A stretch of DNA of 64,000 nucleotides from Lasiosphaeria ovina (taxonomy: Eukaryota; Ascomycota; Sordariomycetes; Sordariales; Lasiosphaeriaceae), in the NCBI GenBank assembly GCA_033439765.1, contig JAULSN010000011.1, positions 310,001 to 374,000 of the forward strand. The letters are read 5' to 3'. Both the position numbers and the translations under genes were made by a program. Shown one piece after another: positions 35,543 through 61,158 of the stretch; position 1 is the first letter of the stretch; each line of letters starts with the position of its first letter. The notes beneath the pieces are model-generated. The model ran no database searches, was not told the DNA's origin, and saw nothing but the letters and a program-made list of their open reading frames with translations.

Positions 35543-38500
35543 ATGGTGGACGCGGCCCCCAATACTGGCAATGGCACGGGCACGGCAGTCGCCCCCGGGG
35601 AAGTGGAGCTCGAAACAGCCAGAGGCCCACATCCACACTTGACGTTGTCGGAACACAGGCCGGGAAAGTTCCACTGCGTAACCGAGCACGTCAAGGCCGC
35701 ACACATTCATTCGGCGCGCATTGGAGGCGAGCAGAAACGCTTCTCGCGATGGAAGCCCGGATCAGTCGTCACATATACCGTCATCAACGCAAGCTTCCCT
35801 TCCCCCAGATGGGCGAGGTTTGCCCAACGCGCGCTCGCCGAAGCGGCCGACGCCTGGAACGCCAAGGACGTGGGCATTCGCTTCCGCCAGGTCGACCACG
35901 GCGATGGCGATGGCAATGGCGCTGTCTTCGCCCTCAAGTATTTCCGCGCCCCGACCAAATTTCTCGCCGACGCCTTCGCCCCCGACTCCAAGAACAGGAC
36001 TCTGTATGTCTTTGACATGCCTCTCCGCCGCGAGAACCGCCAGCACCTGCCCAACCTCTTCCGCCACGAGCTCGGCCACGTTCTAGGCCTCCGCCACGAT
36101 GATGCCGCGACCAAAGAGCCCGAGGTGCCGTCGGTCGAGCTGACACCCGCGAATACCATGTCCATCATGAATCTGTTCACCGATTTCGACCATCTGGCCC
36201 GGCTTTCCATCCAAGAGTCCGATGTTGCGGCGGTGCGAAGGCTGTGCTCGCTGGACCAGGACACGTTTGAAGGGTTCGACCTTGTCACTGTCGACCCCGA
36301 CACCCTGGACCAAGCCAACTTTGACGACTCGGACCGCCTCAGCTCCTCAATCGATTCCGAACCCGTGAGCATCTGCGACTCGGACTGTGCCAGCGACGAC
36401 GGGCTGCCTGATGATGATGCCGAGGAGCCACCCGCGACTGAGCTGGAAGGGACGGTTCAGGCCAATCCAGATGAGCCAGCACTCGCGGATTCGGCGGGGA
36501 CCATCCGCGCTCTTTCTGACGACGCAGCCTCTGTCAATGCCAAAGAGGTCTCTGGTCCTATTGCCAGCCCGACCGAGACTGTTGATGGCAGCTCTGGCAA
36601 AATAGACAATGTGACTTCCTACACGCGACGTCGAGCTCCTGTCATTGAGCTTGATACCCTTGCTGATGAATCGGCGCAGGTCAGCGAGGAAGCGACAACC
36701 GTTGTGCTCAACGAATCGGCTGAATCCAGCCCTGAGGAGAAACGCTCACCCATTCCCAGTGAACCATCAGACGTCAAATGGAAGACCGACACCAAAGACA
36801 GAGATGAAGTGGATGCCTACAGGCTGGACGTCGATTTGGAAGATGCCCTGACTCCGGACCGCGGAAGAGAAAACATGTTCCTGGTGCAAGACAACCCGTT
36901 TGCCTTCTCGCCCGGCCAGCTCTCCAAGCTGTTCAACCCCAAGAGCCACGGTGCCTTCTACGCGCTCGGCGGCCTCGGCGGCCTGGAGAAGGGCCTGCGC
37001 ACCGACCGGAAGGCTGGACTGAGCCTCGACGAGGCCCAACTTGAGGGCGCCGTCTCATTCGAGGATGCGGCGACCTACGGCACGTCACAATACGGTGAAC
37101 TTGACGACAAGGAAGCCGAACTACACCGCAACCGGACACCAGCAGAGCCCGTTTCCACTGCGATGGGCGACGAAAGCTTTGCGGACCGCAAGCGCATCTT
37201 TAGCGATAATCGAATCCCGGAAACTATGCACAAGCCCATTCTGAGGCTTGCCTGGGAGGTCTACTGTAGCAAGAAATCCTCGATCGTGCTTACGCTTGCG
37301 GCCGTGGTATCGTTCACCCTAGGCATGCGTCGCGATCTCCTGGCGTCGCAGGTGGGCGACAAGCCCATGCAGGGTTGGGCAGAAGGGGCTGCCATTCTCG
37401 TGTGCATTGCAGTCTCTGTTGTTGCGGGGACAGCCAACCAGTGTGAGACTCCATTTTGAAATAGTAAGATAATGCTGATAACACGGTTATTAACATTGAA
37501 AAATAGGGAAAACACTACGACTACTCGCTCGACTGGACAGTTACGAGAACGACCGCATTGTCAAAGTCGTTCGGTCGGGCAAGACAATGGAGGCGTCCGT
37601 GTTCGACCTTCTGGTCGGCGACGTGGTTTGTGTCTCGGCCGGCGACATTGTGCCCGTCGATGGCATCCTCATCGAGGGCCACGGCCTCAAGTGTGATGAG
37701 TCCAGTTGCACGGGCGAGTCAGACCTCTTGACCAAGGTTTCGGCAGATCAGGTGTACACGATTCTGCACGACGTGTCCAACGGAAAAAAGATTACCGCCC
37801 GGCTAGTCGACCGAATGGATCCATTCCTCATCTCGGGCGCCAAGGTCCAGGAAGGATCCGGCACGTTTCTTGCTACAGCTGTTGGCGTCAACTCGACAGA
37901 CGGCCAAATAGCAATGGCAATGAGACGCTATCCTGAAGGACCGGCCCCCCAGACCCAAAGAATCATCAACTTGTCCTCGCGCGCTTCCAAGCTCGGGATC
38001 GCCATGGGCCTTATGCTCTTCGTTGTCTGCCTCATCAAGTTCCTGTCAACACTTCCCCAAAGCCCCCTAACGCCAGAGGGGAAAAGCCAGGTCTTTCTGG
38101 CGCTGCTCCTGGTCTCCGGCGCGGTTGTCTCGCTGCTCTTCGTCTCGAATATTGGCTCGCCGCTCACGGCCTGGACACTGACAAGGATGCTGCGAGACAA
38201 CAACCTGGTGCGCGACAGAAGAGCCTGGGAAAAGGTAGCCAGTGTCACGACAATCTGCACAGGAAAGACTAGCATCTTGACCCAAAACAAGATGAGTGTC
38301 GCCGCCGCCACCTTCGGAAGATCGATGGGGTTCGGAAATCCCAGACCATCCCTAGATGGCGCTAATGATGGCGCGCTCGATGACGGCATGGCCGACTCTG
38401 TCTCCGAGGCTCACGCTGTCGAAAGCCTCAGTGACGAGACCAAAACCATACTGGCGCAGTCTGCCGTTGTTAACGCGACTGCGTTCGAGGGCTATTTCGA

Positions 38501-40278
38501 CGGAGAGCGCGCCTTTGTCGGCTGTGAGACTGAAGCCGTGCTCATGAGCTTCAGCCGCGACCACTTGGCTTACTTTGACAACTCCTCTGTCTCGAGGCAC
38601 AACGTGTCCATAGTACGCCAGGTCGCGTTCTCGGCCGGGACAAAGCTCATGTCGACGACGATCCGCCTGCCCTACGGCGGATTCCGCGTCTACGTCAAGG
38701 GCGGCGCCGAAATTGTCCTTGCGCTCTGCACCCGCGTGCTCAACGACCCGGCGAGCCCCAGCCTGTCGGCAACTGGCCTGACCGGCGACGACAGCGACCT
38801 GTTGCAGCAGAGGATCGCGTCGTACGGCCAGAGAGGCCTGCGTCCGATCGCCCTTGCGTATCGCGACTTCAGCTACCTCCCAGGCGAAGACGACCCCAGC
38901 GCCGTACTCCGCAACATGACGCAGCTCGCCCTGTTTGGCATCCGGGACCCCATCCGCCCCGGCATCACCGAAGCCGTCAGGGACTGTCGGCGAGCGGGGG
39001 TCGCTGTTCGCATCGTCACGGGAGAGCACATCGAGACGGCACGCTGGATTGCCCGGGAGACGGGCATCTGGGCGCCAGACTCGATTGCGTTGGAAGGCCC
39101 TGTCTTCCGCCGCATGGACCCCGAAACACAACGACATGTTGCGCCGCGCCTAGCGGTCCTCGCGCGTGCTTCCCCGGGAGATAAGTGCGTCTTGGTGAGA
39201 ATTCTCAAGGAGGCCGGCGAAGTTGTCGCTGCTACCGGTGGCAACGTCGATGACCCCCCTGCCCTGAAGATCGCCGACGTTGGCTTCGCCAAGGGCATTA
39301 GCGGCACCAATGCCGCGAAGACGGCTGCGCCGGTCGTCTTGATGAATGATAGTTTCTGCTCAATCGTGCACTGCATCCGCTGGGGACGGACTTTCGGCGA
39401 TGCCGCCGGGAAGTTTCTCCAGGTATGTAATCACGTCACCCCGGCTGCAGCCGGTTGTTTAATCGTCACCGTGTTCCGCTGCAAAGCGCTGCGTCCGACT
39501 ATGTATGCTAACACACCCGCTGCAGTTCAAGCTGACCGCGGCAACAACGGCCGCCGTTTTGACATTCGTCCTAGCTGCGGCATCGGATGTCAACGATAGC
39601 ATCGTCCTCGGAGTCGTCCAGCTGCTCTGGGTCGGCATGATCACGGATTTCGCGGTCCTCGCGCTGGCCACGGATACACCGACGGAGAGAATAATGGACC
39701 GCAAACCGGACCGGCGGTCGTCGCCCGTCTTTCCGCTGCGCATGGCCAAGATGGTGCTCGGCCAGAGTCTTTGCCACCTGGCCATCTCTCTGGTGCTCTA
39801 CTTTGGTTGGTTTGGTTTTGCGGGCGGCCACCGAGATGTGTCGGACAAGACGCGACGCAACACGTTTGTTTTCAACACGTTTGTGTGGCTGCAAATCTTC
39901 AACAAGCTCAACAGCCGGCGGCTCGACAACCGGTTCAACGTCTTTGAGGGCATCCGCAACAAATTCTTTGTCTTAGTCGGTGTGCTTATCATAGGCGGGC
40001 AAGTGCTCGTCATGTTTGTGGGCGGAACGGCGTTTAAGATCGTGCCGCTCGGCGCGAGAGACTGGGGGGTTTCTATCGGTATCGGCGCGCTGTCTCTTCC
40101 ATGCGGCGCTTTGCTGCGTCTCGTTCCGGACCGTTGCGTCCAGGGCCCGTATGAGTCGGTGCGTTCGCTGGCTGAGAGGCTTAGACGGGCTGTCGAGCGC
40201 AGGGTTAACTATGACTCGGACTTGGATGTCCTGCCCTGGGAGGTGCGATTGGACGGAACTCGGGAGCGAGGTGAGTGA
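35543..40278 (+). CDS. Matrixin-like metalloprotease fused to a degenerate PMCA-type P-type ATPase
   Basis: Three exons, 35543-37442, 37507-39422 and 39526-40278, give 1522 residues. The first 638-codon frame is uninterrupted through both domains. Residues 65-240 are a zinc protease: HELGHVLGLRH (175-185) gives the three zinc histidines and Glu176, with a Met-turn SIMN at 207-210. No signal peptide is seen. An acidic linker (240-440) follows, then the fungal Ca-ATPase N-terminus (NPFAFSPGQLSKLF, 451 on). TGES is kept at 702-705 and KGGAE is kept in the N-domain. The phosphorylation motif DKTGT reads GKTSI (Gly886 for Asp), TGDGxND reads TGGNVDD (1210-1216), M4 PEGLP reads NIGSP (848-852), and M5/M6 asparagines are Ala1278 and Gly1309. 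Ten membrane helices remain. A GTGAGT at 40271 may lead to a different last exon ending near 40345. Confidence 0.88.
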
Positions 40279-41047: not shown

Positions 41048-42336
41048 ATGAAGCCCCCCTCCTGCCTCATCCGACTGCTATCGCTAGCTTCCCTAGTCGA
41101 CCTAGCTCTTGGCGGTCACAGCCCGGATCCCGAAGCCCTCGCCTACATACGAGTCAAGGAGCTGCAGGTGCAGTACCAAAAGCACATCGTCGACACCATC
41201 AGGCCACGCAAGACGGGATGCACCACCAAGACAATCCTGCGACGGAGAGAGTGGTCTGTGTCTCCTTCTTCCCAGGTCCATGCCAGCAGCAATCAGGTAC
41301 TGACACAGGACCAGGGGCTCGCTGCCCAAGCACGAGCGCCTCGCGTACATCGACGCCGTGTACTGCCTGGCCAACAAAACCGCGCAGACGCCGCCGTCGC
41401 AGGTCCCCGGCGCGCGCTCCCGCTACGACGACTTCGTCGGCCTGCACATCCAACAAACCCTCTTTGTGCACTCGGACGGCCTGTTCCTGCCCTTCCATCG
41501 CCACCTCGTACACCTGTACGAGCGCGCGCTGCGCGACGAGTGCGGCTTCCGCGGCGCCCAGCCCTATTGGGACTGGACGCTCTCGTACAAGGACCCGCGC
41601 AACTCGTCCGTGCTCGACGGCGCGCCGTGGTCGCTCGGCAGCAACGGGGACTATATCCCGAAGCGCGCCCCAACGGCCGTCGTGTTCCCCGGCAGGCCCG
41701 GCTTTGCGTTCCCGCCGGCGACCGGCGGCGGCTGTGTCCAGTCGGGCCCGTTCACCGAGGACAAGTTCCAGGTCAACCTCGGCCCCGTGGGGTTTCTCCC
41801 CGTGGGCCCTGATGGTGGGTATGGCTACAACCCGCGCTGTCTGGCGAGGGATCTCAACCCGGCGTTCAGCACGTGTCTGCGCCCGACGAATGTCACGAAG
41901 CTGATCGATGGCTGTGGCGGCGACCTCGGCTGCTTCAATGTCGAGCTGGATATCCCCGGTGGCCTGCACAGTTCGGGCCATTTCCAGATGGGCGGTATTA
42001 GCCTCGACATCTTTGCCAGCCCGGCGGATCCGGTGTTTTGGCTGCACCACGCCCAGATTGATCGTCTATGGGCGATCTGGCAGGGCCAGGCTCTGCGCGC
42101 AAGGAGGGATTTGGTCTGGGGGACTAGTACGAGTAATAATTGTGCGTGTTTGCTCCGGATTCATCTTCCTTTTTCTCGTTTTCCCCCCTTTTTGGCTAAC
42201 TTTAGCTGGGATAGACCCCCCGAGCGACAACATCACGCTCGACTACCCTGTCACGTTTGGCGTGTTTGGGCCATCCAAGCCTGTCAGGGAGCTGGTCTCG
42301 TCGATTGACGGGCCGCATTGCTACATATACGAGTGA
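41048..42336 (+). CDS. Secreted short tyrosinase / catechol oxidase
   Basis: Three exons, 41048-41253, 41309-42141 and 42206-42336, give 389 residues. The first donor is the weak GTCTGT, but the join (REW/TRGSLPKHERLAYIDAVYCL) restores the family's conserved start. A signal peptide covers about residues 1-22. CuA ligands lie in GLHIQQTLFVHSDGLFLPFHRH, followed by PYWDWTLSYKDP. CuB ligands lie in GLHSSGHFQMGG and in the hallmark SPADPVFWLHHAQIDRLWAIWQ. The C-terminus ends soon after the Cu domain (YPVTFGVFGP), with no cap or pro-domain, as in short secreted fungal tyrosinases. It oxidises phenols or catechols to quinones; involvement in melanin or a secondary metabolite is inferred. Confidence 0.92.
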
Positions 42337-43235: not shown

Positions 43236-44798
43236 TCAGGGCATGGCGTTCTTGCTCAGCGCGCGGATCCTGGCGCCGTAGACATACAGCAGATACGGCA
43301 CCGGGGCCAGGACGGTGGCGAGGGCGGCGGGGATGGTGAGGGCGCGGTGGGGGCCGAGGTTCTCGTACATGGGCACTGAGGCGGGCAGGATGGCGCCCGA
43401 TACGACGTAGCGGGTGCAGGTGATGAAGGCGAGAGCCGACGCCGAGTGCAGCCCGTACACGAAGCACGTGTACAGCAGAATGGTCGAGAAGACGGTGAGC
43501 AGGCCGTAGCCGAAGAAGACGGAGCCCACGAGAGGCACCCAGATGCTGACGTCGGGCTGGAACCCGTTAGCAGCCAATAACAGACAAAAAGGGGGAGAGA
43601 AGCTCACGTAGCACGACCAGGCCATCCACCACAGCGACGCCGGCAGCAGCACAGACCCGCCCAGCATGCTGAACCACAGGCACATCTCAGGCGTCAGCGT
43701 GCCGGCGGCGGCAGCCTTCTTGGCCCAGCCGTAGATGAGCGGCACGAGCGGCGCCATGAGCAAGTCACCCACCAGCAGCGCGGCCCACAGGATGTACGTC
43801 AGCGACCCCGAGATGCCGTACGTCTGCTCGAAGATGAACGGGTAGCCGTTGAGAAACGTGAACAGCACAATGTAGATGACCGTCAAGTAGAACGCAAACA
43901 CGAGGATAATCGGCTCCGAGTACGTCATCACAAACGGCCGGTACAGGTTGACCAGCAATCGCCTGGCCAGCGTGCGCGCAGCAGCATGGTGCTCGGATGC
44001 CTGGAAGCGCGCGTCGCCGGTCAACTGGCGCAGGTGGCTGGCGCGCCACTCGAGCAGCACGGCCGGGTATGTCTCTGGCTGGCAGAGGAGCATGTAGGCA
44101 AGCACGGCGCCGGCAATGATCAGAGCCGTCCAGTCGGCCCAGCGGAAGCCGACACCGGGCAGGTAGGCACCAATAATAGGCCCGGTCAGCGGGCCGGCGT
44201 ACGCGGTGATACCCACCACAGGGATGACGAAAATCATCTCGAGCGGCGTGAACAGGTCCGCCACGCTGCCGCCCGACGCCGTCAGCGGCGTCGACCCGAA
44301 GAAGCCGGTGAGGAAGCGGAACGCGAGGGCCGCGCCAAAGCTCGGCGCGAGCGCCTTGCCGAGGATGAACGCCATGAAGGCGACGAACGTGGTTATGTAG
44401 ACCACGTTGCGCCCGAACGTCTCCGACACGGTCCCCGCGACCAGCGCGCCGAGCCCCGTGCCGATCAGGTACAGGCCTGTGGTGAGGGACCCCGCGACGG
44501 GCCCGACGTTGAAGTGCGCGTTGAAGGCCAGAGACACGGGCGCGTCGATCGACGACGGCACGCTGACGGCGAACGCGAGCAGGCACGCGCCGAGGGCGGC
44601 GAAGAACCGCTTGGCGTTCGGCCAGTTCTGTGGGTTCATGGGGTCGCTGGCCGAGCGCCAGCCGACTAGGAATGTTACGCTGCCGTCGTGTTCCGAGGGG
44701 CGTGTTACGGTGATGCCGGGCAGTTTCCATAGGCGCGCTTCTGAGTCGCTGTCTTGGACGGCGGCGGCTTGGGTTTGGTTATTGGTTGTTGTTGTTGC

Positions 44799-44836
<38 letters not shown>

Positions 44837-44948
44837 GTGGTGGCAGTGCTGTCTTGGGCTCGACGGCGTCTGTGGACGGGGGATGGCGCTGGGCGAGATC
44901 TGCTTCGACCTCCCTGCGTATGCGACGGTACTGGATCAGGGACTGCAT
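43236..44948 (-). CDS. MFS drug:H+ antiporter (DHA1-type) transporter
   Basis: Two exons, 44948-43608 and 43556-43236, give 553 residues. The 51-nt intron (GTGAGC donor, GCTAAC branch, CCAG acceptor) is a multiple of three, so reading through it adds only 17 residues; splicing gives the uninterrupted helix SCYPDVSIWVPLVG. The N-terminal cytosolic region has a polythreonine tract from a GTT/ACA microsatellite (about 44782-44835). Twelve membrane helices are recognisable. The motif A-like segment SETFGRNVVY and the motif C-like segment ASGGSVADLF match fungal polyamine/drug exporters. Likely a plasma-membrane exporter of a toxic or self-made compound. Divergent from the Myb-type regulator at 45627. 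Confidence 0.92.
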
Positions 44949-49819: not shown

Positions 49820-51889
49820 ATGCGGCGACTCATCATCTCGATCCTGGCCGCGCTGGCCGCCCTCCCAGACAACGTCCTAGCAGGCGCGCGGCAGAAGCCC
49901 AAGGACAATGTCTACGACTACATCGTCGTCGGGAGCGGGCCTGGTGGCGGGCCTATCGCGAGCAAGCTGGCGCGGGCCGGGCACTCGGTGCTGCTGATCG
50001 AGGCGGGCGACGACCAGAGCGCCAACGTCAACTCGGAAATCGTCACCTTCTTCCCGGTAGCCTACCAGGACCCGCTGCTGAGGTGGGACTTTTTCGCGCG
50101 CAACTTTGACAACACAACGCGTAACCTCCAGCACAACTACAACGTCTGGCGCCGCACCGACGGCTCCTTCTACGTCGGCCGTAACCCGCCGCCCGGCGCC
50201 ACCCTGCTGGGTCTCTACTACCCACGCGGCGGCACGCTCGGGGGCAGCACCGCCATCAACGCCATGACGGCCATCCTGCCCAGCGACAGCGACTGGACGA
50301 ATGTCGCCGCCTTGACGGGGGACACCACCTGGAAGTAAGTGGAGACCCATTGGCTAGGACGACATGACCAGGAGACTGACGTTGCCGTACACAGCGCCGC
50401 GCACATGCGCGACATCTTCGTGCGCGTCGAAAACAACCACTACCTCCCACCGGGCACGCCGGGGCACGGCTTCGCGGGCTACCTCGACACGACGGCGAAC
50501 AACAAGGCGGCACTGGCCGGACAGGACGACCTGGTCAGCGTGCTGCGGGTCGTGTCGACTAGCCTGGGGCAGGACGGCGCCGCCATCCTCGACAACCTAT
50601 CCGCCGACGTCAACTACCTCTCCGCCGCGCGCGACCAGGCGCAGGGCGTGTGGGCCGACACGCTGCACGCGACGGCCAAGATGCGCCGCTCCAGCTCGCG
50701 CGACTACATCCTCAACACGACCAACGCCGTCGACGCCCGCGGCAACCAAAAGTACCCGCTATTCGTGCAGCTCAACACGCTCGCCACCAAGATCCTCTTC
50801 AACTCCCCTTCAGGGCGCCAGCAGCAGCCCAAGGCCACCGGCGTCGAGTTCCTGCAGGGCGCGCACCTGTACGGCGCCGACCCCAACTTCAACGCCTCGG
50901 CGCGCGGGACACCAGGGCGCGCCTACGCACGCAAGGAAGTCGTCATCTCAGCGGGCGCGTTCAACTCACCCCAACTCCTGAAACTGTCCGGCATCGGGCC
51001 CGCGGCCGAACTGGCCCGCTTCAAGATCCCGCTCGTCGCCAACCTGCCCGGCGTCGGCGCGCGCCTGCAGGACAACCACGAAGTGCCCATCGTCGCGCAG
51101 GCCGCGCGGCCATTCGCCTCGCCGCCGCCTCCCCCCGGAACCCCCGTGTGCACGTTCGGCGCGCCGGGCGACCCGTGCGTGGCGCTGTGGCGCAACGGGA
51201 CGGGGCCGTACGCGACGCAGGGCGCGCTGAACGCCATCTTCCGCAAGTCGTCGGCGGCGGCGGCGGCGCTCAACGAGCGGGATTTTTTCTTGGTGGGCGG
51301 TAACTTCGCGCTGCGCGGGTTCTGGCCGCCGACGGACTCGATCGCGCCCGACCCGCCGACCATGTTCGCGCTGTCGACCGTCAAGCTGCACCCGCGCAAC
51401 ACGGCCGGCAGCGTGCGGCTGCGCAGCGCCAGCCCGCGCGACGTGCCGGATATCGACTTCAACCTGTTCTCGGCGTCGGACCCGGAGACGGCGGCGGATA
51501 TCGCCGCGGCGCTGGACACGGTCAAGTGGGCGCGGCGCGTGTACGCGGCGGTGCCGCCGCCGATCGGGCCGCTGGTGGCGACGGAGCCGCCGTGCACGGC
51601 TGCGAGCGGGGTGGCCGCCGCCGACGGGTCGTGCGTCGATGCTGATGATGTGGCCTGGCTGACGGACCAGGCGTGGGGCCATCACCCAACGAGCACGTGC
51701 GCGATCGGGAGCGATAGGGACGCGCTGGCGGTGCTCGACTCCAAGTTCCGCGTGCGCGGCGTGCGCGGGCTGCGCGTGGTCGATGCGAGCGCGTTCCCGC
51801 GCGTGCCCGGGCCGTTTCCGGCGCTGCCGACGTTTATGCTTAGTGAGAAGGCTGCCGAGAGTGTGCTTGCGGATGCGGGGAGCTGGTGA
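49820..51889 (+). CDS. Secreted GMC-family FAD oxidoreductase
   Basis: Two exons, 49820-50334 and 50395-51889, give 669 residues. The intron has a GTAAGT donor and an ACACAG acceptor. The signal peptide is about residues 1-21 (MRRLIISILAALAALPDNVLA). The FAD-binding motif GSGPGG is at residues 38-43, the flavin-attachment-like GGTLGGSTAIN box precedes the intron, and the second GMC signature is EVVISAGAFNSPQLLKLSGIGP. The catalytic histidine is in GHHPTSTCAIG, and the C-terminal LPTFMLSEKAAESV matches the fungal glucose-methanol-choline family. Likely oxidises an extracellular alcohol or sugar and makes H2O2; substrate unassigned. A second GMC enzyme lies at 59003-61158. Confidence 0.92.
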
Positions 51890-53759: not shown

Positions 53760-55021
53760 GGTGCTGCGCGACTTATGACTCGTTCGTTGCGGGAAACTTG
53801 ACGCTAATTAGGTATGTAGGTGAAGCTAGCTTAGCCCGTTCGATGCACAGCGTAAAGGGGGTGAGGACGCGATCACGAACGATATCTCAAGTTGACGAGA
53901 AGCAATGTCAAAACTCAATTGGAGACAAAGGCCTGATTGCTTCGAATTCGGACTCCAACACCCCCAAATCGAAGGCACAACCTGGCCTCGCCACTGTCTC
54001 TCCACGCAGCCTTTGATGTCATGGAAGGTGGGGGACGAAGATCGGACGATAGTCTGCTTTAGTTGCATAATTGGAGAGGCATTGAATGCAGGGGAAAGTT
54101 GGACTTGGTAGATATGCATATAGAGGGGCAGTATTTCCGTAAATGTAAATACGAGCTTGATCCCTGCAGGCGCCCCGTCAGCGCCCCGCGTGCGCCGTGC
54201 GGCGGAAAAAAAATTGACGTCACAGGTCTTATGACGTCGCGGGCGCCGACCAGGCCGGCCCTTGGCGGTGGGGGAAAGCGCCAGGCACCGGCCGGACAAA
54301 GTTCTCCGCCGCCTTGGTCGCAGCAAACTGAGCAGTAGCACTGATAACATACGTGACTGATTGACACAGTGCAAGTGACGACACTCGTGCCTACGTGTCC
54401 TAGTGCCTAACACCCAGTGCCTACAGTGTACACTCTTACCGTGGTTGGTCGGCCAAAGTGTGCGGTTCATGATGCGGAAGGAACGGCCCAAAACCAGCCA
54501 CAAACCCTGTCTCGCTGTCCCATTTGGTCTGAAGGCTTTTGTGGGCGCCTTCTTCACTGGACAGCGGCCTCGCCTTTCCTCATCAGTCAGGGGCAGCAGG
54601 TCATTTGCCGGGCTCGGATTGGGAACAGGGTTGGGCTTGATGCAAGTTCGACGCCGTGCAGGGCGGCTGTTCTTAATTCGGCCAGCTCGCATCGTCGCGG
54701 TTCGGGAATCTTCGGCAGCGCCCGTGACTGTCAGGATTTATAATTCTGCGTTACAATTTTGTTGCACCTTAACGCCTTTCCCCGACGTTCTGAGTAATCG
54801 CCTTGCACTTGCACTTATTCTTTTTCTGTTTCATTTTCCCGCCCATTTGCAAAACACTCATATTGCCCCTCTCCGTTGTTCCCCCAAGTCGGGCTTTTAG
54901 GCCAGACGACAGCCACCTTTGTGTCCACTTCCATCCCCCCTGCACGTTGCCCAGCCGTCTTGAGTCGCAACAACATCGTGATCTGCGCCGACCCAGCATC
55001 CACGGCCCATCTTCATCCACC
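53760..55021. promoter_or_regulatory. erdH/erdS divergent promoter with paired CRE-like sites
   Basis: 1.26 kb shared upstream region. It contains a perfect palindromic CRE TGACGTCA (54215-54222) and, 17 bases further on, TGACGTCG (54232-54239), a pair of ATF/CREB-type sites. An A8 tract precedes them. The frame upstream of erdS stays open to a TTG at 54803 but has no ATG before 55022, so the start is not ambiguous. Confidence 0.6.
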
Positions 55022-57772
55022 ATGTCGCCAGCCGGACTCAAGAAGCCCCTTTTGGCGCTCAACCGCATCATCGGTCATTCGTCGGCCAAAAACCACATCA
55101 CCAAGATAAAGATCGGGAACATCGAGGCCCTTAATGAGGAGCGCCAGAAGAAGCAGTTGAAGAAGGCCCAGGAGCTGCTGGCCAAGGTGGACGAACGTGA
55201 GAATGAGCGCCGTTCCATCCAGCAGCGGCGCGTCGACGAGGAGGCGAAGGCGCTCGCCACTGACCCGCCAGACATTGCGGCAAGATACGGTACTAAGCAT
55301 AGCAAGGTCCTTGCCGCCAGCTCGACGTCGTTGGAGCACATGGCCGCTAGCACCGCCGATGTTGGCAAGACGATTAGCTTCACGGCTCGCATACACCACG
55401 TGCGCCCCCTGAGCTCCAAGCTGGCCTTCATCATCTTCCGCGACAAGGTCGAGACCATCCAAGGCGTTCTCGCCTACCGCGAAGGCGCCATCTCGGAGAA
55501 CTTTGTCCGCTGGGCCGAGCACTTGAACGCCGAAGGCATCGTCCACGTCGAGGGCAAGCTGCAGGCCCCTCCGGAGCCCATCAAGGGCTGCTCAATCAGC
55601 AACCTCGAAGTGCTTGTCGAGACCATGCACCTAGTGGTACCGGTGGACGATCATCTACCCGTCGACGCCTTCGCCATCGACCATGTTGAGGAGGACGAGA
55701 GCACGCATCAGCTCGAGTCTCTGGCGTCCACCCGAGTTCGGGTTGCCAATCGCATCGCCTTCCTCAGGACCCCAACCGCGCAGTCCATATTCCGCATCAG
55801 CGCCGCAATCAGCAGCATCTTCCGGAACTTCCTCGAGAGCCAGGACTTCATTGAGATCCACACCCCCAAGTTGCAGCCGGCCGCTACCGAGTCAGGTGCT
55901 GAGGTCTTCAAAGCTAATTACTTTGGGCGGACCGCCTTTCTCGCGCAGAGTCCACAGCTGGCCAAGCAGTTGAGCATCTCGGCCGACTTTGGCCGCGTCT
56001 TCGAGATTGGCCCCGTGTTTCGAGCAGAGGACAGCAACACACATCGGCATCTCACCGAATACACGGGACTGGACCTGGAGATGGCCATTGATAAGGACTA
56101 CCACGAGGCGCTTTCCCTGATCGATACCATGATGAAGGCCATCTTCAAGGGCATCTACGAGCGATACCGAAAGGAGCTCGACATTGTCAAGACGCGGTTC
56201 CCACACGAGGATCTCGTCTGGCTAGAGGAGACGCCTATTTTGACATTTAAGGACGCCGTGGGTTTGCTCAATGCCTCTGGCTGGACCGACGAGCACGGCC
56301 ATAAGGCTTCCGAGTTTGAGGACCTTAGCACACGCGCAGAGATACGCCTGGGAGAAGTGATGAAGGAGAAGTACAAGACGGATTACTACATCATTGACAA
56401 GTTCCCCACCTCTGCACGACCATTTTATGCCCATCTCGATCCTGAAGACGAGAGGTTCACCAACTCGTTCGACATTTTTCTCCGAGGGCAGGAGATTACG
56501 ACGGGCGGCCAGAGGATCCACAACCCGAACGCACTCAAGGCCAGGATGCAAAAGGCCGGCATCGAGCCTAGCGGCATGCAAGAATACATGCAGGGATTCG
56601 AGTACGGCGTTCTGCCTCACGCCGGGTGCGGAATCGGCTTGGAGAGGATGGTGTTCCTCATGCTGAACTTGGGCGACATCCGCAACGCTTCTCTCTTCCC
56701 CCGCGATCCAAAGTCTCTCCCAGAAACAAAGGATGACGAGGTTAAGCTCCCGCATCCTGATGCCGACACGATCCGATACGCCTACGAGTTCGAGAGGGGC
56801 CGCAAGGATCTGGTGCTTCCGCCGGTCGAGAAACTCATCGCCAACTACGGCGACGCCACAAACACTTCGTGGCTCGACGACCGCTACCAAATCTGGCGGC
56901 ACGAGGAAAACGGGGCGGCTGTTGGCTATGCCGAGGAGAACGGCTACGCGCTCGTCATGGGCAACCCGCTGTGCGACGCGCGGCAGTACCAGATTGTCAT
57001 CCTGGCCTTCTTGAAGCACATGCAAAAGACGATGGACCTGCGTCCCCTCTGGCTGTTGGTCTCTCACGAGGTCGAAGACATACTCGGGTCCAAGCTCGGC
57101 TGGCGCAGCCTCAGCTGCGTGGCAGAGGAGCGGGTGCAGGTCGACAGCGCCAAGAAGGTGGCCAAGAAGGAGCGGCAGGCGCAAGACGCCGGCGTCAGCA
57201 TCCACGAGCTGCCCACCGACGAGCCGGTGCCCGACGACTTCCGCGCCAGGTGCGACAAGCGCATCGAGGACTGGAAGTCCAACCGTAAGGGGCGCACGCA
57301 GGTGCACATCACCGAGGTGCGGCCGTGGGTCGACACGGCGCACCGGCGGTACCTGTGGGCCGAGACGCGCGACGGCGAGATCGCCGCGCTGTGCGTGCTG
57401 CACCGCCTGTCGCCGGCCAACGGCTACCAGATCAAGTTCGCGCTCGACTTCCCCGGCTCGCCCAACGGCACCATCGAGGCCCTCATCTCGGCCGCCATCC
57501 AGGCGCTGGCCAAGGCCGGCGTCAAGAACGTCACCTTCGGCGCCGGCGCCTTGCCCGAGATGGTCACGGGCGGCCACATGGACGGCATCCGCGCAAAGAT
57601 CCTCTCGCGCACCTACCGCACCGTCGCCCAGCAGCTCAAGCTCGTGCAGAAGAGCGAGTTCCGCGAGAAGTTTGGCACCCAGAACGACCTTGTCTACATC
57701 TGCTACCCCTTTATGGGGCTCGGCGTGTCGGGCGCGCGCACCCTGATCAAGTTCTTTGAAGACGAGATGTGA
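55022..57772 (+). CDS. erdS: Ergosteryl-3-beta-O-L-aspartate synthase: AspRS fused to DUF2156 transferase
   Basis: Single exon, 916 residues, ATG in a good context (CACCATGTC). Residues 25-75 are a charged helix, followed by an OB-fold anticodon-binding domain. The class IIb catalytic core has the AspRS flipping-loop segment ATESGAEVF, motif 2 FRAEDSNTHRHLTEYTGLD (333-351) and motif 3 GCGIGLER (535-542). From about residue 595 a DUF2156/MprF-type GNAT-fold domain begins (LVLPPVEKLIANYGD, TSWLDDRYQIWR) and runs to the end (VGYAEENGYALVMGNPLCD, YICYPFMGLG). This exact fusion is ErdS, which charges tRNA-Asp and transfers the aspartyl group to ergosterol, giving ergosteryl-aspartate in membranes. 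No frameshift or missing signature residue is seen. The hydrolase partner is divergent on the left. Confidence 0.94.
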   Translation: MSPAGLKKPLLALNRIIGHSSAKNHITKIKIGNIEALNEERQKKQLKKAQELLAKVDERENERRSIQQRRVDEEAKALATDPPDIAARYGTKHSKVLAASSTSLEHMAASTADVGKTISFTARIHHVRPLSSKLAFIIFRDKVETIQGVLAYREGAISENFVRWAEHLNAEGIVHVEGKLQAPPEPIKGCSISNLEVLVETMHLVVPVDDHLPVDAFAIDHVEEDESTHQLESLASTRVRVANRIAFLRTPTAQSIFRISAAISSIFRNFLESQDFIEIHTPKLQPAATESGAEVFKANYFGRTAFLAQSPQLAKQLSISADFGRVFEIGPVFRAEDSNTHRHLTEYTGLDLEMAIDKDYHEALSLIDTMMKAIFKGIYERYRKELDIVKTRFPHEDLVWLEETPILTFKDAVGLLNASGWTDEHGHKASEFEDLSTRAEIRLGEVMKEKYKTDYYIIDKFPTSARPFYAHLDPEDERFTNSFDIFLRGQEITTGGQRIHNPNALKARMQKAGIEPSGMQEYMQGFEYGVLPHAGCGIGLERMVFLMLNLGDIRNASLFPRDPKSLPETKDDEVKLPHPDADTIRYAYEFERGRKDLVLPPVEKLIANYGDATNTSWLDDRYQIWRHEENGAAVGYAEENGYALVMGNPLCDARQYQIVILAFLKHMQKTMDLRPLWLLVSHEVEDILGSKLGWRSLSCVAEERVQVDSAKKVAKKERQAQDAGVSIHELPTDEPVPDDFRARCDKRIEDWKSNRKGRTQVHITEVRPWVDTAHRRYLWAETRDGEIAALCVLHRLSPANGYQIKFALDFPGSPNGTIEALISAAIQALAKAGVKNVTFGAGALPEMVTGGHMDGIRAKILSRTYRTVAQQLKLVQKSEFREKFGTQNDLVYICYPFMGLGVSGARTLIKFFEDEM

Positions 57773-59002: not shown

Positions 59003-61158
59003 ATGAACCGCTGCCTTGCTGTCGCCGTCGCGGCGCTGGCGCTGACCAGCCAGGTCTGCTACGCATATCCCCGCGGCCTGTCCACCGCGAGAGTTCTTGC
59101 CCGCGCTCAAGATGTAGAAGACACGTACGACTATGTCATTGTCGGCGGCGGGACGGCCGGCCTCACTGTCGCCGACCGGCTGACCGAAGACGGCAAGACG
59201 ACGGTGCTGGTCGTCGAGTATGGCGAGCTCAGTAAGCCCACCCACCCCCTTGTCGAAGAATGGCTGCTGACATCCCCACAGGTAGCTCTCCGCTCATCCA
59301 AACCGTGCAGGGGGGCTTCATGGGCATGTCGAGTCCGCAGTTCATGTACGACATCACGTCGGTGCCGCAGGTCAACCTGCGCAACCGCACGACGCCGGTT
59401 CTGGCGGGCAAGGTTGTCGGCGGTGGGTCCGCGGTCAACGCCATGATGACAGTTCGTGGCACGGCCGAGGACTACGACCGCTGGGGCCGCTTCTTCAGCA
59501 ACCACTCCGAGTGGAGCTGGGACGGGCTGCTGCCCTACTTCAAGCGCGCGCTGCACTTTGCGCCGCCCGACGCGGCCGTCGCGCGCGCCGCCAACATCAC
59601 CTACGACGCCGCCTTCTGGGGCAACACGTCGGGCGTCTACGCCGGCTGGCCCTCGTTCCAGTTCCCCGCCACCGCCCTCCACGTCGCCGCCTTCCACGGC
59701 GTGCCCGGCGTCGAGTTCCCCCCCGACAGCGGCGCCGGCGAGCCCGGCGTCTACTGGTTTCCCACCTTCATGGACCCGCACACCGTCGCCCGGTCCTACG
59801 CCCGGACGGGCCACTACGACCCCGCCGCCAACCGCTCAAACTACCACCTGCTGACGGGCGCCAAGGTGACGCGCATCCTACTGGAAGGGACGACGGCGAC
59901 GGGCGTGGCGTTCGTTCAGACGCCGGCGAATGCTAATAGTAGTAACTTCACCGCGACGGCGCTGCCAACCGTCGTCCGCGCGCGTAAGGAGGTCATCCTG
60001 TCGGCCGGCGGCATCCACAGCCCGCAGATCCTCCAGCTCAGCGGCATCGGCCCGCGCAAGCTGCTCGCCGCGGCCAACATCACCGCCATCGTCGACCTGC
60101 CGGGCGTGGGCATGAACTTCCAGGACCACCCCATGCTGACGGCCGCGTTCATGTGTACGCTTCCCGTTTTTGCAAGTAGCTAATTAGGCAAGATGGTTCA
60201 CGATGAGCTCTGCTGACCAGTGATTGTTGTTGTTATGGCAGACCAAAACTTCTCGGTCCACCCGTCGGGCGACGACATGTTCTTCAACGCGACGTTCCAG
60301 ACGTGGGCTGCAGAGGTGTGGGCGGCGAACCGGACGGGGCCCTTCTCGATCGCGACGGGCAACGCGGCAGCGTGGCTGCCGTTCCCTGTAGTGTCGCCGC
60401 AGCGCCACGCCGACGTAGCCGCAGCACTAGCAACACAAGACCACGCAGCACAGCTACCGGCAGGTACCGACGCGACGGTGGCGGCCGGGTACCGGGCGCA
60501 GATGCTGGCGTACGCAACAGCCCTTGCAAACAACGGCACGGCCTTCTACAACTCGGTGCTGTCGGGCGGCGCGACCAGCGGCGTGCTCGTCGACCTGCAC
60601 CCGCTGTCGCGCGGCACCGTGCACATCGACCCGGCCGACCCGCTCGGCGCCGAGCCCGTCGTCGACTACCGCGCGCTGAGCAACCCGCTCGACGTAGCCG
60701 TCATCACCGAGCTGCTGCGCTTCGCCCGCAGCTCCGTCATGGACAACCCGCTCACGGCCGGTTTCGCGCCTGTCGAGCTCGTCCCCGGCGCCAATGTTAC
60801 CAGTGATGCCGACTGGGCAGAGTACATTGCCGACACCGTCTCGCCCACCGAGTTCCACCCCGCTGGCACCTGCGCCATGATGCCGCGCGAGCTGGGCGGT
60901 GTCGTCGATGAGCAGCTCAGGGTGTATGGCGTGAGCAATCTGCGTGTGGTCGATGCGAGCATCATCCCAACTCTGCCCGGCGCGAATACCTGCCAGACTG
61001 TCTATGCTATTGCTGAGAAGGTAAGTTTTTCTTTCTTTTCCCCTTTATTTTCTCTTCTCTTCTCGTTCTATCCTGGGCAGCAAGAGAATGTGTGTGTGCT
61101 AACTCGGATTCACAAGGCGGCGGATCTCATTCGCTACGGTCCAAAGAACGGAGTGTAA
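59003..61158 (+). CDS. Secreted GMC-family FAD oxidoreductase (aryl-alcohol oxidase-like)
   Basis: Four exons, 59003-59231, 59282-60154, 60242-61020 and 61117-61158, give 640 residues. Donors are GTAAGC, GTACGC and GTAAGT, with a GCTAAC branch in the last intron. The signal peptide is about residues 1-21. The FAD motif GGGTAG is at 48-53, the flavin box [14 protein letters not shown] follows, and the second GMC signature is [23 protein letters not shown]-terminal FHPAGTCAM carries the catalytic His and [20 protein letters not shown] the catalytic Asn. A potential N-glycosylated secreted oxidase. Compared with the GMC at 49820 it has a complete His/Asn pair and different introns, so the two are distant members rather than a recent duplication. 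Confidence 0.93.

Follow-up and report, generated by a model that had tools for sequence, protein, structure and literature searches.

We analyzed a 64,000-nt stretch of the genome of Lasiosphaeria ovina, a wood-inhabiting sordariomycete of the order Sordariales (JAULSN010000011.1, positions 310,001 to 374,000, forward strand; hereafter the window, placed on contig C3 of the 51.7 Mb genome), and found that a gene at 35543-40278 (+) joins a metzincin-type metalloprotease to a calcium-pump-like ATPase that has lost its pump motifs. The gene has three exons and encodes 1522 residues after splicing. From the N- to the C-terminus, they comprise a metzincin domain with HELGHVLGLRH and SIM motifs, an acidic linker and a ten-helix fungal ATPase of the plasma membrane calcium ATPase (PMCA) type. 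Sequence comparison establishes the fusion, its conservation in other fungi, the intact protease motifs, the lost pump motifs and the grouping of the fused ATPases. We consider it likely, with a probability of about 0.68, that this single gene gives rise to a membrane-tethered cytosolic metalloprotease, in which the dead PMCA-type ATPase would serve as anchor and probable regulator.

Loss of pump motifs in the ATPase half

The ATPase half belongs by descent to the P-type ATPase superfamily. Its sequence matches PMCA2 in the PDB (E 1.1e-129), Pfam E1-E2_ATPase, Cation_ATPase, Hydrolase and Cation_ATPase_C score above their cut-offs in the exon frames of the window, and its structural model best matches mouse PMCA in the E1-ATP state (E 1.6e-51), at a middling model quality (predicted local distance difference test score (pLDDT) 70.5; predicted template modeling score (pTM) 0.52). 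Residue columns were scored with Neurospora NCA-3 as the reference in seven fused proteins, that is, the window protein and six relatives (P0007, the deposited protein of the same locus, was left out), and in the 114 unfused proteins among the best 120 of 2857 matches; one fused protein, P0006, lay outside those 120.

The phosphorylated Asp of DKTGT is replaced in all seven fused proteins (by Gly, Gly, Glu, Ser, Gly, Gly and Ser), the first Asp of TGDGxND has become Gly or Lys in 7/7, and the Asn residues of M5 and M6 are lost in 7/7. Each of these four positions is retained in 114/114 unfused relatives. PEGLP in M4, which was read apart from the column alignment because the M4 columns are gappy, is missing in every fused protein and in 1/114 unfused ones; the column of the M6 Thr, poorly aligned in the fused rows, was excluded. 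No unfused dead pump was detected among the 114 unfused proteins of the best 120 matches. The first-pass annotation, which had judged the pump dead from the window alone, is borne out by these losses across the family, and all of its motif positions were recovered (HELGHVLGLRH at residues 175-185, SIMN, TGES at 702, NIGSP at 848, Gly886, KGGAE at 1031 and TGGNVDD at 1210). The Asp of M6 is kept in 7/7. A sequencing error as the cause of the missing DKTGT Asp is unlikely because the residue is also missing in all six other fused proteins, and the existence of these relatives disfavors a single odd genome as well.

Other parts of the machinery remain. All seven fused proteins retain Thr353, Asp601, Arg604, Thr625, Lys684 and Asp707 (SERCA numbering), along with the last Asp of TGDGxND. 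TGES is retained in 6/7, including the window protein, and was lost in P0006. The nucleotide pocket is mostly preserved (Phe in 6/7, Lys in 5/7, and Arg in all six proteins with a residue there). The sequence features tested exclude a functional P-type ATPase, and the transport site is unlikely to sense calcium because the M4 motif and the M5/M6 Asn residues are gone (the M6 Asp stays).

A predicted active metzincin domain

HExxHxxGxxH and a Met-turn, which define the metzincin clan, are present in 7/7 fused proteins, and the predicted fold of residues 57-237 matches karilysin and the catalytic domain of the matrix metalloproteinases (MMPs). The N-terminal domain is predicted to be an active metzincin. 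Pfam Peptidase_M10 (PF00413) detects it in the window protein at residues 75-188 with 27 bits against a gathering score of 24; none of the six fused relatives passes this matrixin cut-off, and one of them, P0003, passes Reprolysin_4 (27.1 vs 22). Matrixins carry Ser or Thr after the third zinc-binding His. The fused proteins have Asp (2/7) or Glu (5/7) there, so that the earlier description of the domain as matrixin-like holds for the predicted fold but not for this residue. The fusion also differs from matrixins (M10A; karilysin and MMPs) in having no signal-peptide-like start, and six of the seven fused proteins score under the Pfam matrixin cut-off. Matrixin-like proteins are already on record for fungi: the available text of a previous study (PMC7804941) reports one such putative M10A enzyme, with HQxxH as its motif, for Aspergillus niger.

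A conserved Cys, Cys45, may act as a latch resembling a cysteine switch. Its distance to RW is 20 to 31 residues in the different proteins. Compared with the cysteine-switch residue numbers of proMMP-9 and proMMP-2, the aligned range could put Cys45 at 99 in the former and is one residue off in the latter, within a region modeled at a pLDDT of only 31-39. The mean pairwise identity of the fused protease domains is 0.59, and these domains group together in a tree with support of 82/94 (the 189-residue P0125 was left out).

Probable membrane tether and possible role of the dead pump

Twelve stand-alone fungal zincins (P0122-P0133, 189-486 residues, some named 'Peptidase metallopeptidase') possess a homologous catalytic domain with the same invariant Cys and His ligands as the fusion and no ATPase. 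A C-terminal hydrophobic segment is present in nine of them (19-residue Kyte-Doolittle mean of 1.67 to 2.87), and within the first 60 residues none of the 12 reaches 1.6. No such segment was found ahead of the ATPase in the fused proteins (best values 0.49 to 1.02). From these sequences, the same catalytic domain appears to be put on the cytosolic side of a membrane in both designs, by a simple tail in one and by a ten-helix dead pump in the other. The previous suggestion of a cytosolic protease tethered by a pseudo-pump gains independent support from the nine C-terminal segments. A stand-alone paralogue of L. ovina itself (P0122, on contig C12) is among the nine. A genomic open reading frame (ORF) at G000:C12:3453633-3454322 (L020) ends in a hydrophobic tail (2.25), and the C-terminus of the deposited P0122 differs. 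The same genome encodes another stand-alone metzincin paralogue, which is more distant (33% identity; L021, G000:C31:456871-457434).

In the mechanism that we favor, the metzincin domain would face the cytosol, as suggested by the topology of P-type ATPases and by a start that does not resemble a signal peptide. The former pump would hold it at a membrane and would probably position or gate the protease via the largely preserved nucleotide-binding N domain and the N-terminal region, without moving ions. The protease may be regulated by nucleotide that is bound but not hydrolyzed, by binding partners in the manner of iRhoms, or not at all; the membrane concerned, regulation by nucleotide or calcium and the substrates are inferred. 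A bolder version, in which the conserved pseudo-pump family would be a receptor-like, nucleotide- or membrane-sensing gate for the fused protease and might even use a cysteine-switch latch despite the reducing conditions of the cytosol, is put forward tentatively.

To see where constraint lies, we compared mean pairwise identities within the seven fused proteins and within seven intact pumps, two sets that were not taxonomically matched. The fused proteins are more divergent in M1-M2 (0.41 vs 0.81), M3-M4 (0.44 vs 0.79), A (0.53 vs 0.75), P1 (0.61 vs 0.95), P2 (0.55 vs 0.85) and M5-M10 (0.53 vs 0.80), to a lesser degree in N (0.47 vs 0.61), and hardly in the N-terminal region (0.57 vs 0.63). 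In our reading of these values, constraint may have moved away from the parts used for transport and onto the protease and the N-terminal region of the PMCA. In another explanation, the ATPase half is a purely passive anchor, an elaborate substitute for the one helix at the C-terminus of the stand-alone proteins, with no regulatory input. Such an anchor would fit the hydrophobic tails of nine of the 12 stand-alone relatives and the lower conservation of the core ATPase parts compared with the protease. However, it would not need the N and A domains, yet their modeled fold and many nucleotide-pocket residues are kept, and the conservation of the N-terminal region comes close to that of intact pumps. 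We regard a passive anchor as unlikely, though a serious candidate.

The ATPase half might instead be a decoy or subunit-like partner which, by resembling NCA pumps, brings the protease to real pumps or their partners for cleavage. In favor of this, the L. ovina genome contains at least three further PMCA-type loci (on C23, C1 and C29) in which DKTGT, PEGLP and TGDGTND occur, and known pseudoenzymes work by partner binding, as iRhoms do with ADAM17 in the available parts of the reports cited below. We consider such a decoy, with its hypothetical dimerization and substrates, rather improbable.

Evidence for a single gene

The deposited protein of this locus, P0007 ('putative calcium P-type ATPase NCA-3'), starts at Met445, and the protease is dropped from it. 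Taken at face value, this start would make the fusion an annotation artefact, with a protease gene adjacent to an NCA-3 pump and placed in one frame with it by chance. Several lines of evidence argue against this. The frame holds no Met from Met209, which lies in the Met-turn of the protease, up to Met445, and the linkers of P0002 and P0006 contain no Met at all. The 235 codons between Met209 and Met445 are free of stops; when this stretch was simulated with a first-order Markov model, 8 of 20000 runs remained open. The intact C23 paralogue (IDVNDALTPDPRTEDMF) shares a DVDLEDALTPD block that directly precedes Met445, which indicates that the block is part of the pump N-terminus. Moreover, a search with query residues 30-270, limited to large proteins, recovered six other proteins deposited as fusions, all of which (6/6) contain both halves in an identical domain order. 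They come from Immersiella caudata, Ilyonectria destructans, Staphylotrichum longicolle, Fusarium avenaceum, Fusarium mundagurra and one Joint Genome Institute (JGI) metagenome, and thus span Sordariales and, via Ilyonectria, Hypocreales, the order to which Fusarium also belongs. Split or truncated models such as P0007 would escape a search of this kind, and six is therefore a lower bound. The JGI protein (P0001, 1487 residues, on a 4914-base contig) reads through both intron places when viewed at the protein level, which suggests that it derives from cDNA or from an intronless gene.

The missing Met, the pump-shared upstream block, the open 235 codons and the six fused relatives all argue against the start of P0007, which is probably wrong, and an artefact of annotation appears very improbable. 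The first-pass annotation had described one continuous frame. It was right about a single gene, which the six fused relatives support, but two small GT-AG introns interrupt the frame, so that it is continuous only after splicing.

Evolution of the fused family

The seven fused ATPases fall on one side of a branch with a Shimodaira-Hasegawa-like approximate likelihood ratio test (SH-aLRT) support of 100, both in a 39-row tree, where long branches meet and the window row has an odd letter make-up, and in a 21-row mixture-model tree drawn from the same rows. Both trees are unrooted, and the fused ATPases would form one clade on the assumption that the root lies among the unfused pumps. The fused proteins have long branches, which make their order within the group unsure, and the two trees give different orders. 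Because the group persists in the mixture-model tree, long-branch attraction is unlikely to be its only cause. On one side of the point where the group attaches are NCA-3-like rows, and on the other is a smaller set that includes the C1 paralogue; the group may have arisen from either the NCA-3 or the NCA-2 side.

Lost catalytic residues and long ATPase branches would also be expected of a decaying pseudogene, a duplicated pump that has lost its function and is drifting. On the other hand, seven long fused proteins are found across two orders, and the protease motifs and the PMCA N-terminal region are still conserved. The TpA/ApT ratio, which is usually read as an index of repeat-induced point mutation (RIP), is 0.44 in the gene and gives no RIP signature. 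A RIP-damaged pseudogene is disfavored by the dinucleotide indices and the open frames, and drift of a pseudogene in general seems highly unlikely. Residual transport by a route without an aspartyl phosphate, for which TGES (6/7) and several P-domain residues (7/7) remain, is scarcely credible given the joint loss of the phosphorylated Asp, the first TGDG Asp, PEGLP and the M5/M6 Asn residues in 7/7.

Several observations weigh against a tethered protease controlled by a dead pump. The public model of this locus excludes the protease, and only one of the seven fused proteins scores above the Pfam matrixin cut-off, with one other above that of Reprolysin_4. A C-terminal hydrophobic segment is missing from three of the 12 stand-alone proteins, namely P0131, P0133 and the short P0125. 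Since the ATPase half diverges fast, little may be demanded of it beyond folding in the membrane. Finally, P0006 is without TGES and the KGA lysine, and the deposited model of P0004 is without part of the N domain, so that nucleotide binding may not be general among the fused proteins.

Gene structure and neighboring genes

The features of the gene are listed in Table 1. Exon 1 is common to the protease and the ATPase N-terminus. The site of intron 2 reads KFLQ/FKLTA, compared with KFLQ/FQLTV in the intact C23 paralogue.

Table 1. Features of the fusion gene in window coordinates
Feature	Position	Strand	Remarks
Exon 1: protease, linker, ATPase N-terminal region, M1, part of M2	35543..37442	+	Start ATG at 35543
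Metzincin catalytic domain and conserved N-terminal stretch, approx. residues 27-261	35621..36325	+	
Cys45 codon	35675..35677	+	Cys invariant in 19/19 aligned relatives; possible cysteine-switch-like latch
HELGHVLGLRH	36065-36097	+	
Met-turn SIMN	36161-36172	+	
Acidic, Ser/Thr-rich linker, residues 262-428	36326..36826	+	No in-frame Met
PMCA-type N-terminal region, residues 429-555 (DVDLEDALTPD...NPFAFSPGQLSKLF...GLEKGLRTDR)	36827..37207	+	Conserved with intact pumps
Internal ATG, Met445	36875..36877	+	Start of public NCA-3 model P0007
Intron 1, 64 nt, GT-AG	37443..37506	+	Identical junction in P0007
Exon 2: remainder of M2, A domain (TGES), M3-M4, P domain, N domain	37507..39422	+	Pfam E1-E2_ATPase, Cation_ATPase, Hydrolase
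CTGKTS replacing CSDKTG	38256..38273	+	Gly886 (GGA at 38262) at the place of the phosphorylated Asp
TGGNVDD replacing TGDGTND	39234..39254	+	
Intron 2, 103 nt, GT-AG	39423..39525	+	Identical junction in P0007; frame of C23 paralogue breaks at this place
Exon 3: M5-M10 and C-terminal tail	39526..40278	+	Stop 40276-40278; Cation_ATPase_C 127.6 bits

Near the C-terminus, P0007 omits 13 in-frame codons at 40204-40242 as a questionable, unusually short 39-nt GT-AG 'intron'. Downstream of the fusion gene lie a tyrosinase ORF (41358-42308, +) and an MFS transporter ORF (43236-44948, -). The window also contains two GMC oxidoreductase ORFs (50339-51889 and 59260-60183) and an ORF (54803-57772, +) in which a class II aminoacyl-tRNA synthetase (D, K, N) is joined to an LPG_synthase_C domain, an arrangement that resembles fungal tRNA-dependent lipid-aminoacylating synthases. 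A Pfam search of ten window ORFs revealed no functional link between the neighbors and the fusion gene.

Relation to known systems and implications

The closest relatives of the ATPase half are the P2B, PMCA-type pumps NCA-2 and NCA-3. The fusion shares with them the ten-helix architecture and the NPFAFSPGQL...GLEKGLRTD block, is about 50% identical to its best unfused hits, and has PMCA as the closest PDB sequence and fold; it differs in the protease at the N-terminus and in the catalytic and ion-binding residues lost in 7/7 fused proteins (the phosphorylated Asp, the TGDG Asp, PEGLP and the M5/M6 Asn residues). The nearest known layout is that of the alveolate guanylate cyclases TgATPaseP-GC, PfGC-alpha and PfGC-beta, in which a P4-ATPase domain and an effector enzyme share one chain; unlike the fusion, they are of the P4 class, the ATPase domain is N-terminal and the effector is a cyclase. 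In the available portions of two reports, the ATPase domain of PfGC-beta is described as degenerated (PMC6592433), and PfGC-alpha parasites with the conserved Asp replaced could not be selected (PMC7858053). A second likeness is to the iRhom pseudoproteases, dead multi-pass membrane enzymes which, in the accessible parts of two sources, control the metalloprotease ADAM17 (PMC6451368, PMC13277793). The role proposed for the dead pump is similar, but iRhoms and ADAM17 are two separate proteins, and iRhoms belong to the rhomboid family. Neither a protease-pump fusion nor a conserved P2-type pump without the phosphorylated Asp was found in the open-access literature, which was searched partly by title, and a word search of the available text of a 2023 review of P-type ATPase enigmas (PMC10654040) for "metalloprotease", "fused" or "inactive" gave no hit.

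Proteins of this kind are concealed by their annotation. At least one source names five of the six fused relatives as calcium pumps, and no peptidase appears among the precomputed Pfam domains of any of the six. If the mechanism that we favor is true, fungi would possess cytosolic, membrane-bound proteases with a matrixin fold, and the family would offer a natural experiment for telling the regulatory parts of a P-type ATPase from those needed for pumping. It would also mean that a transport machine can be converted into a scaffold or sensor for proteolysis.

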